DNA of 64,000 nt from Thelephora terrestris (Eukaryota; Basidiomycota; Agaricomycetes; Thelephorales; Thelephoraceae): the NCBI GenBank assembly GCA_015956445.1, contig WIUZ02000022.1, forward strand, positions 186,001 through 250,000, read 5' to 3'. This document shows, piece by piece, positions 60,399 to 64,000 of this stretch (position 1 is the first letter of the stretch; every line of letters begins with the position of its first letter). The notes under the pieces were generated by a model. The model made no database searches and was not told the DNA's origin. It saw nothing but the letters and a program-made list of their open reading frames with translations. The position numbers and the translations under genes were made by a program.

Positions 60399-61668
60399 AT
60401 GCCAGCGGTCGTCCAACGCCAGGCTACCTTCCCTATCTCCAGCCCGGGCACTATCCTTGCCTTCCAGTTCTCGTCATGGTACCCAAGGTTCAGACAGATT
60501 AGCATAAAATCAACAATCATAAAACCGTTGGACGCTTCATTTTTACAGTACTTGAACTCCGATGGCGTATTTCTCCCAGACGGATCGGAAAATGGGTACC
60601 GCATTTGATCGCTCGGTTTGTCTGCAAGCTGATCCTGAATACCATAGTTCCTCTCAAAGCACGTTATCTGACGACGAAGATGAAGTGGAGGATTCTAGCA
60701 GCGAACCAGACAGTGAATATGGGAGAGAACGTTTTGCTTTCCCAGAGCTGGACAAGCAGATAAGACAAGCAATATCTGAATATGGGGCTGTTTTCCCGAA
60801 ACTAAACTTCTCTTCCCCGAGAGTGAGCGCTCCCTCGTAGCACCCGCCGACGAATATGTACTGAGGGGCGCAGGATGCCGCTTGGGTGCTCCCTGTGTCA
60901 TCCCCGCTACGGTGCGCAAGCCCAGCGGACGTTTATCTCCTCCTGAAATCGTCCGATTTTATCTCCCATGATCTCGACCAAGATATGGTCTTCCAATATT
61001 GCGAAGGGCGTCCACAGGCTTATGAGTTGGAACTTGTCTTGAGGAAATGGTACCCGGTTGACCGGGTACGGGAGTTTCGATGCTTCGTTCGGCAGGATGT
61101 GCTCCTTGGTATATTGGATGATCATTCTTACCATGTTCGGCTCTGACAGCTTGTGCACAGGTATTTCTCAACGGGACCCAAACTACTACCCGTTTCTTAA
61201 CGAGCGGGATATGGAAAGACGAGTCACAGAGGCGATATCTCGAGTTTGGGAAGAGAACGTGAAGGGAAATTGGGAAGTTACACGAGGAAACTGTCAGTCG
61301 TCAACATTTTTTGCTGAATCCAAAGTTTCATCACGAATCTAGATACGTTTGACGTCCTACTGACAAGAGATCTGAAGAGGGGCCACATCATAGACTTCAA
61401 TCCCTATACTTCCAACACCGACCCGCTTTTGTTCACATATGACGAGTTGCTCACCCTATTGCAAGATAGACTGTCTGGAGACTCATCTCGGACTCTCCCT
61501 GCTTTCAAGGTTATTGACTCACCCGCCCACCCTGTCGCGGCGAGCAATGCCCCGATCCACCAGCACAACATGGTTCCATTCGAGGCGCTGTCACTGAGTA
61601 GTGGGAAGGACATTGAGGAGTTCGCAGAGACTTGGGCAAATGAGATTCGGACTTCGATGAGAAACTGA
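60399..61668 (+). CDS. CDC123: Cell division cycle protein 123 (D123, eIF2 assembly factor)
   Basis: Cdc123 is an ATP-grasp-like protein that helps assemble the translation factor eIF2. The first exon gives [20 protein letters not shown] and [19 protein letters not shown]. An acidic stretch follows ([20 protein letters not shown]) and then [20 protein letters not shown] with FPKLNFSSP, a hallmark of the family. Later exons give [60 protein letters not shown] and [20 protein letters not shown], and the protein ends [17 protein letters not shown] at 61668. The usual CDC123 order is complete. It pairs head to head with the Tma23-like gene, and both work in ribosome or translation pathways. Confidence 0.9.
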
Positions 61669-61702: not shown

Positions 61703-64000
61703 TCATACAAGTGGCCTAGAAAAGTCCCCGCTCCGCCCACCGGATTTCTTGCTTACGATGATACCCCGGATCACCATCTCTCTCCCCGCAACGGCCTTGA
61801 GCATGTCCCAGACATTGAGCAGGGCGACAGAAACTGCGGTCAGGGCCTCCATTTCTACTCCAGTCTTACCCGTACACGATACTGCGGCCTCGCATTTGAC
61901 ACTATACTCTTTGCTGGCCCCATTATTCTTTACCTCAGCGGTCAGGGATAGATCGATGTGGGTGATCGGCAGGGGGTGACAAAGGGGGATAAGGTCTGCA
62001 GTGCGCTTGCAGGCCATTATTCCAGCTAGTTGTGAGACAGCAAGAACATCCCCCTTCTTCCCCTTTGCCTCCCGCAGTCCCTCGGAGTCACCTTCGACAG
62101 TTGCTGGAGACCCTTGCGACACGAGATCGTAGGCCACTTTCGGAATCAGAATGCTACCACTCGCGGTAGCGGTCCTTTGGGTGCTGGGCTTGGAACCGAT
62201 ATCGACCATGCGCGCTCGACTAGTTTTGACATCAAAATGAGTGAGGGTCTCAGAGAGCGGTGCGTATCGTCGGGCCGTTGTGGTAAAGAACCGCGAGTGT
62301 TGAGTGGACGCTGTTTTGTTCGGCCGTGAATCTGTTTGTGCCATGGTTTTGAGGAAGTAGGGTGCACGGTCTCTCGAACTAAATGCGGAGCTGGATCGCT
62401 GAGGATCTGCGAATTCTGCAATTAGAGTGCGAGGTGACATGGGATACAGGTGAATAGAGGCTGACTCAACCTCCAATCAAGATCATCGGCCTGTTGGTGG
62501 CAACATCGATTTCTTCCATTCCAGCATGTTTTTCCTTCTTACCGCGAACGGCGATACTGACAGTCTGCATCACAGTATCATCGGTTTCCCCACTCCTAAG
62601 TAGGTCTCGGAGGGACGTCTCCTTCGGGTCGAACAGGCACACCTTTGAGACGCGGGGTTAGGCAGTTAATTATTTGATCCGACGTCAAAACCCCACCTTG
62701 ATTTGACCATCCGCGGTGAGCCTCAGTCTGTTGCATGAAGAGCAGAAATGGTCGGACATGCTGCTGATGAATCCGAAACTGCCTACGTAACCAGGAATCC
62801 TGTAAGAACGAGCAGTATCGTTGAGTTCATCCGCGGCCTTGATGATTGTGGGGTAGCGTTTTTGGAGGTTTGACAACAGGACAGATGATGGCACCATCCT
62901 AGCTTTGTCCCATCTGTTCCCTAGATGTCGTGTTGTTAGATAGCAGAGGAAAGTCGAGTTCTACACCTGCACAGACCTGTAAAGGGCATAAACTCGATAA
63001 ATCTAATAGATATATCCTTCTCTCGGGTCATTTCCACGAAGTCAGGGACTTCGGCGTCATTGAGGTCCTTGATGACGACGAAGTTCAGTTTGACCGACTG
63101 AAGGTCCGAAGACAATGCGATGTCAAGGGCTTTGAGCACTGCGCCGTGGCCCCTTCGCCGTGCCATAATTTCAAATTTGAAAGGGTCGAGGGTATCAAGG
63201 CTGGCTTTGCGGTTGAGCTTGAGCCTAAGAACAAGATTTGTGGACGGTGTTCACCTGAGATTGAGGTGAGTTAGCCCGTTTTCCACCAGTCGAGGGAGCG
63301 TTCGGTGGAGGGCGATTCCGTTGCTTGTCATTCCAATGGAGCGTAGACCATGCTGACGTAATTCACTCAATCTGCCTGTTTGGTTTGAATGGATTCAGGA
63401 TCGGCGCATGGAGCGCAAGGAGCAGGGCGGGATTCACCAATAAGGTCGACAACCCCTGCTCTGACCATTGGCTCGCCACCAGTAAGCCTGATCTTTGTCA
63501 CTCCTTGTTTGACAAACATTTTAGCCAGGCGAACAACCTCGTCGTCTGTGAGAAGATGCGGTTTTGGTGTGAGTTCTACCCCCTCCTCCGGCATGCAATA
63601 GAAACCTTGGAGAGCGGTCAGAAAATCGCAATGAAAATATAGGAAGCGACACAACATCGTAGGTTACATCGTTCAGTGAGGCCTAGGTTTGTTGTTGAGA
63701 GCTCCCGGGCGGTGTGCAAGGGCCGAACAAGCACGCACTGATTCGCAAGTAGTTATGCATACGCCCAAAAGTATCTCGTAGGGGCGGAGGAGGGCCCTTC
63801 TTGAGGTCCACCTCCACAATCCTTGCCTTTCAATTTGAGAGGAATGAGTGGGATCTGCGTTCCTGAAGATGGCTTGAATAATACCTTTGCAGTGATGGAG
63901 TTCGCGGTGATACTTCTTATATGACGGAGAGCGCGCGGGGTGTCCCCCAGGATGCGATTAGGAAGGGTACAACAACGTGACAGACAGACAGCGCCGAACA
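61703..64000 (-). CDS. Molybdenum cofactor synthesis MoaA-MoaC fusion (MOCS1 type), 5' end off window
   Basis: This gene makes cyclic pyranopterin monophosphate from GTP. The MoaA part is a radical SAM enzyme. Splicing of exons 63885->64000, 63739-63826, 63656-63682 (27 nt) and from 63605 gives [13 protein letters not shown] and the cluster motif CNLRCFYC, then [20 protein letters not shown] and [17 protein letters not shown]. Later: [51 protein letters not shown] (second cluster). It ends MILIGG-stop at 62466. The MoaC part reads [52 protein letters not shown] and [20 protein letters not shown], stop at 61703. A 55-nt intron (62416-62470) would remove the last Gly and the stop and fuse the parts. 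No start codon is visible before the right edge; exon 1 has presequence character ([15 protein letters not shown]). Confidence 0.88.

Follow-up and report, generated by a model that had tools for sequence, protein, structure and literature searches.

A candidate intron-retention switch at the Gly-Gly-stop of a MoaA-MoaC gene in Thelephora terrestris

Locus and gene model

The DNA analyzed (the window, 64,000 nucleotides) corresponds to positions 186001-250000 of contig C15 (WIUZ02000022.1) in a 40.6 Mb assembly of 60 contigs. An agaricomycete origin agrees with three weak DUF6534 matches in the genome (E 5.5e-5 to 8.9e-5, interrupted by stops), against none in 14 prokaryote control genomes. 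The gene model was built by hand on the minus strand and continued past the window end; the start codon and intron 1 were also placed by hand. Window positions of the features are listed below, with slashes marking splice or cleavage boundaries.

64001, minus strand: A of the start ATG, one base beyond the window, placed by hand.
63885-64000, minus strand: exon 1, encoding a presequence-like N-terminus that ends ITAK (hand model; amphipathic moment).
63826-63739, 63682-63656, 63605-63438, 63375-63255, 63200-62977, 62920-62697 and 62642-62471, minus strand: MoaA exons 2 to 8, with CX3CX2C and Mob_synth_C.
62541-62542, minus strand: alternative donor GCG/GTAAGA, which keeps the frame with the acceptor at 62416 (intron of 127 nt) or at 62461 (82 nt); its use would delete the MoaA tail.
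62466-62474, minus strand: GGA GGT TGA (GGA 62474-62472, GGT 62471-62469, TGA 62468-62466), C-terminal Gly-Gly and stop of the retained MoaA, read from the sequence.
62455-62475, minus strand: 9-bp hairpin predicted by folding, UGGAGGUUG-AGU-CAGCCUCUA, over the Gly-Gly-stop and the 5' splice site.
62416-62470, minus strand: intron 8 (55 nt, GTTGAG...TTGCAG, phase 1), the final intron in the model, from sequence, pair enumeration and gene finder.
62438-62440, minus strand: ATG within intron 8 in the MoaC frame, 25 nt past the MoaA stop by sequence, a possible re-initiation site in unspliced mRNA.
62264-62415, minus strand: linker encoded by exon 9, starting EFADPQRSS (sequence; weak coding signal).
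62261-62272, minus strand: R-R-Y/A, a site like those of mitochondrial processing peptidase, directly before the MoaC core (motif rarity, post hoc).
61703-62263, minus strand: MoaC core ending SGDFSRPLV plus stop, identified by domain matches and intronless in the hand model.

The hand model describes a complete MOCS1-type gene, MoaA followed by MoaC, with eight introns of 50 to 62 nt (58, 56, 50, 62, 54, 56, 54 and 55 nt for introns 1 to 8). Introns 2 to 7 lie inside the stretch aligned with the MoaA model and intron 1 lies upstream of it. The spliced product is an in-frame MoaA-MoaC fusion of 617 residues (MoaC stop at 61705-61703), and the product with intron 8 retained has 381 residues and the C-terminus RPMILIGG. 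TIGR02666 (MoaA) matched at 350 bits against a cut-off of 284, residues 55-380 aligning with model positions 1-335 of 336, and TIGR00581 (MoaC) matched at 150.7 bits against a cut-off of 141.5, with PF01967 at 156 bits. Pfam domains in the gene are Radical_SAM, Mob_synth_C and MoaC, the radical SAM CX3CX2C is present as CNLRCFYC, and solved relatives comprise bacterial MoaA (1tv7, 1tv8, 2fb2 and 2fb3) and several MoaC structures. The gene belongs to the MOCS1/nit-7/cnxABC class by its MoaA with CX3CX2C, its downstream MoaC in the same frame after splicing, and its Gly-Gly-stop. A search of the genome found a single match to Mob_synth_C and a single match to MoaC; if no match was missed, this locus appears to be the source of both activities.

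Intron 3 (63655-63606, minus strand) has a very poor donor, GAT/GTTGTG, at -5.26 bits. It splits the radical SAM CX3CX2C, so that its splicing is required for any active MoaA, and it is a second possible weak point for regulation.

Intron 8, its donor and the linker

A sequence-only reading had proposed that the Gly-Gly-stop of MoaA overlaps a 55-nt intron and that the donor GT lies within the second glycine codon. Both points were confirmed on the minus strand: the codons read ATT GGA G/GT TGA G, and the intron runs from GTTGAG to TTGCAG at 62470-62416 with the sequence, coordinates and length proposed. Splicing joins the two parts in the MoaC frame, as claimed, through I-L-I-G-E-F-A-D (ILIGEFADP). 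The frames likewise agree with the reading's two products, in that retention would give MoaA with a C-terminal Gly-Gly and splicing a fusion without the second glycine. Stop-codon read-through was rejected as a route to MoaC, since an intron of 55 nt (3n+1) shifts the frame and cannot join MoaA and MoaC when left in place.

Pairs of GT and AG at least 40 nt apart were enumerated with donors from 62640 to 62441 and acceptors down to 62263, an open MoaA-MoaC frame being required. This gave 43 in-frame pairs, only one of which (62470-62416) fell within 50-62 nt; a 64-nt pair uses the same donor as intron 8, and several pairs are longer, including those from GTAAGA at 62542. The intron 8 junction is beyond chance, being the only in-frame pair that matches the lengths of the gene's other introns. 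A gene finder self-trained on 268 kb of the Thelephora assembly (61 genes and 302 introns; intron length median 54, quartiles 52 and 59, 95th percentile 82.8 nt) picked exactly 62470-62416 unprompted. Its errors at the locus were an internal ATG start, four missed introns (1 to 4) and two spurious introns past the end of MoaC. It scored the fusion at a cost of 2.1 nats versus 7.6 for a separate start, values that depend on priors set by us. Donor learning from ORF-joining GT-AG pairs was dropped because GT pairs (235) were not commoner than several control dinucleotides (149-264), and the self-trained gene finder was used instead.

Complete frames ending in Gly-Gly-stop were found in prokaryote genomes for 80 of 80 bacterial MoaA relatives among the matches listed (567 confirmed); with only bacterial MoaA among these 80, the scan is informative on the Gly-Gly end and not on fungal junctions. 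Judged from these sequences and from the TIGR02666 alignment, which reaches model position 335, the Gly-Gly end is genuine MoaA anatomy. The C-terminal tail of MoaA extends into its active site. In Neurospora NIT-7A the double glycine is described as needed (PMC7232280). Viral contigs searched for relatives gave eight pattern matches and no relatives.

Every stop codon begins with T, so where the GT of a donor also finishes a GGT codon followed by the stop, the donor is forced to GTT, and to GTTGA where the stop is TGA. Among the 302 predicted introns, T at +3 occurs in 25, and T at +3 without G at +5 in five. The intron 8 donor motif scored -3.93 bits (as weak or weaker in 4 of the 301 other predicted introns), and the acceptor is strong, at the 87th percentile. 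A branch-site match, CTAAT, lies only 6 nt from the 3' end of the intron; distances of 8 nt or less occur in at most 8 of the 135 predicted introns bearing such a motif. The alternative donor at 62542 scored 2.35 bits, the 40th percentile of predicted donors.

Opening of the donor from -3 to +6 was calculated to cost 11.4 kcal/mol with 30-nt flanks, a cost that 1 of the 301 other predicted introns also attains, and 13.1-13.5 kcal/mol with 50- or 80-nt flanks, reached by about 1% of introns or fewer. Motif strength and opening cost were hardly correlated (r = 0.06). With the two combined, the intron 8 donor was the worst of 302 (0 of 301 others worse), a rank that should be read as post hoc, the hairpin having been spotted before it was tested, and as relative to a comparison set of mostly predicted introns. 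When the 40-nt donor region was shuffled 1000 times with its dinucleotides preserved, eight of the shuffles folded equally well. The 85-nt fold is unremarkable (z = -0.96, 34 of 200 shuffles as good), and the mean unpaired probability of the donor, at only the 9th to 17th percentile, is less striking than the opening energy. Such a weak donor with predicted structure is, short of proof, what an inefficiently spliced and regulable intron would look like. Note that donor weakness alone does not imply retention: the donor of intron 3 is weaker, yet that intron must be spliced.

Ahead of its core, the MoaC frame runs without a stop for 71 codons, back to 62476, and the linker shows a weak codon signal. 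The linker contains a Met codon in the MoaC frame (62344-62342), which stands in the context ACCATGG. The amphipathic moment places the protein N-terminus in the top 0.4% of proxy windows and the linker in the top 2.7%; net charge is not distinctive, the linker value being reached by 9.7% of proxy 27-mers. The pattern RR[YFL][AS] occurs 5 times in 29,303 residues of proxy coding frames (0.0017 expected in the ten residues before the MoaC core), and the broader pattern ending -x-[YFL]-[AS] occurs 47 times in the same 29,303 residues (0.016 expected). We take RRY/A to resemble the cleavage sites of mitochondrial processing peptidase plus Icp55. The alignment with bacterial MoaC proteins of solved structure begins at LTHF, so a cut at RRY/A would leave a MoaC of bacterial size, and a peptidase-like site in the linker would explain release of MoaC after import. 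Mitochondrial targeting and fusion cleavage are represented here by computed features, the presequence-like N-terminus and RRY/A.

Switch reading and its alternatives

We consider it likely that this is a fungal MOCS1/nit-7/cnxABC gene in which intron 8 is a switch, with retention giving MoaA-Gly-Gly and splicing giving the MoaA-MoaC fusion. When the intron is retained, translation would stop just past the GGT codon that spans the donor, yielding free MoaA with the catalytically needed Gly-Gly. When it is spliced, the second glycine and the stop would be lost, and the fusion, with its altered MoaA tail, would serve to deliver MoaC. Retention would be easy because a donor that must also encode Gly-stop is necessarily poor (GTT at +1 to +3), because the predicted hairpin is stable and because the intron is the last. 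With the last intron unspliced, the MoaA stop would not be followed by any exon junction that could mark the mRNA for decay. The fusion would be imported through the N-terminal presequence and cut at ARRY/A in the matrix, which would free MoaC. The central proposal of the sequence-only reading, one gene making both enzymes by intron retention, is partly supported. It fits the sequence anatomy and reading frames, the single genome matches, a donor that is weak and probably structured, and the nit-7 precedent, from which we infer the two transcripts.

The idea of a retention switch is already known in a fungus. Neurospora crassa nit-7 is likewise a single MoaA-MoaC gene, whose unspliced mRNA gives NIT-7A ending at an intron-encoded double glycine and whose spliced mRNA gives the fusion NIT-7AB; the unspliced mRNA is described as increasing on nitrate, and a second donor lies 9 nt downstream (PMC7232280). 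The Thelephora gene has the same switch feature, an intron that overlaps the Gly-Gly-stop and leaves an in-frame A-B fusion on removal. It differs in having eight introns, a switch intron of 55 nt and a donor that splits the second glycine codon; in nit-7 the double glycine is encoded in the interior of the gene's only intron, which spans 237 nt at positions 1460-1696 (PMC7232280). NIT-7AB, which has N-terminal mitochondrial targeting, is described as being imported and then losing its A domain, free NIT-7B not being imported (PMC7232280); in the Thelephora gene both targeting and the cut after import are predicted only. The passages on nit-7 consulted in PMC7232280 mention no donor hairpin, in contrast to the one predicted here, and name no protease for the fusion cleavage.

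The likeness to human MOCS1 is looser than had been proposed: two forms arise there through alternative splicing in exon 9, and true retention with an intron-encoded Gly-Gly is the nit-7 arrangement, which the sequence-only reading had not brought up (PMC9607355, PMC7232280). Human MOCS1 shares the domain order, splicing before its last exon decides between MOCS1A and the fusion, and MOCS1AB is cut at residue 432 to free MOCS1B; it differs in relying on alternative splicing in exon 9 instead of plain intron retention and in using an internal targeting motif upstream of MOCS1B (PMC9607355). At the Aspergillus nidulans cnxABC locus the two parts are fused in the same way, and the gene has been discussed as bicistronic (cited in PMC7232280). 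Fungal SKI7/HBS1 also serves two functions from one gene by conserved splicing, with the differences that its proteins are unrelated and that alternative 3' sites and other means are used (PMC3597508). Among alternative splicing events in the mushroom Schizophyllum commune, retention of introns is reported as the most frequent (33% overall; PMC5034255). No paper on a MOCS1 splicing switch in basidiomycetes was found among the open-licence PMC literature.

Three alternatives were weighed against the switch. MoaA and MoaC might be separate proteins and intron 8 no switch, MoaC being made by re-initiation on a bicistronic mRNA (ATG at 62440) or from its own transcript starting at Met 62344, with its own mitochondrial presequence. 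The in-frame ATG 25 nt past the MoaA stop, the ACCATGG context of Met 62344, the presequence-like leader and the weak coding signal of the linker are consistent with this, as are the traces of re-initiation described for a human MOCS1 mutant (PMC9607355). We nevertheless regard it as unlikely, given that no stop interrupts the MoaC frame for 71 codons, through the whole linker, that an intron of typical length joins the frames exactly, and that free NIT-7B made from an internal Met in Neurospora is described as neither mitochondrial nor functional with NIT-7A (PMC7232280). A fusion made from another 5' splice site, GTAAGA at 62542 joined to 62416 or 62461, would delete the conserved MoaA tail and leave the 62470 donor unused. 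Both pairs are in frame, the motif is far better (2.35 versus -3.93 bits) and in Neurospora a pair of donors separated by 9 nt is used (PMC7232280); against this, the introns would be 127 or 82 nt long, compared with a predicted median of 54 and 95th percentile of 82.8 nt, and neither pair was selected by the gene finder, so that we hold this route to be very improbable.

Least probable, in our estimate, is constitutive splicing of intron 8, by which only the fusion would be made, the Gly-Gly-TGA would be a relic, and MoaA would either function with its end changed or be released by proteolytic cleavage. The strong acceptor, and the fact that other weak donors of the gene must be used, speak for efficient splicing. 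The intact MoaA tail, with Gly-Gly in all 80 bacterial relatives among the matches listed, speaks against a relic, as does a donor that ranks last of 302 once structure is included, and for Neurospora the A domain is described as lacking activity within the fusion (PMC7232280).

If both forms exist, a MOCS1 splicing switch would be common to animals, an ascomycete and this further fungus, here with the donor within the functional glycine codon itself and one intron setting the MoaA:MoaC ratio; why both domains stay in one gene would thereby become testable. New points for testing, as predicted from the sequence, are the donor inside the glycine codon, the masking hairpin (a concrete candidate regulatory element) and the matrix cleavage site, RRY/A being a lead to a concrete protease for the Neurospora cleavage. 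An extended model, which we put forward tentatively and consider doubtful as a whole, would give the Gly-Gly-stop a triple role as catalytic C-terminus, 5' splice site and arm of a masking regulatory hairpin. Unmasking by a protein, by temperature or by a metabolite of molybdenum-cofactor demand would set MoaA:MoaC, and the fusion would be cut by mitochondrial processing peptidase at ARRY/A.

Pathway and neighbouring genes

The genome also contains pathway genes for MoaE and for a molybdenum insertase of MoeA type (MoeA_N-type), the latter on the contig of the window at C15:174151-174764, about 74 kb from the MOCS1 gene. PF00174, PF03404, PF02738 and PF20256 (molybdoenzyme) and the MOSC domain PF03473 gave no genome match in a search made exon by exon, from which split domains can escape. 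Exon splitting probably accounts for the missing molybdoenzyme matches; otherwise the genome would hold, puzzlingly, a pathway without users.

A convergent gene of the D123/CDC123 family lies at 60556-61668 of the window on the plus strand, with PF07065 in three exons. Some 34 nt separate its stop from that of MoaC, so the two convergent transcripts must overlap in antisense at their 3' ends. Just outside the window, upstream of the MOCS1 gene and on the same strand, lies an EB1-like gene (C15:250437-251462, minus strand), with a weak calponin-homology match below the family cut-off and five introns of 49-58 nt predicted by the gene finder.
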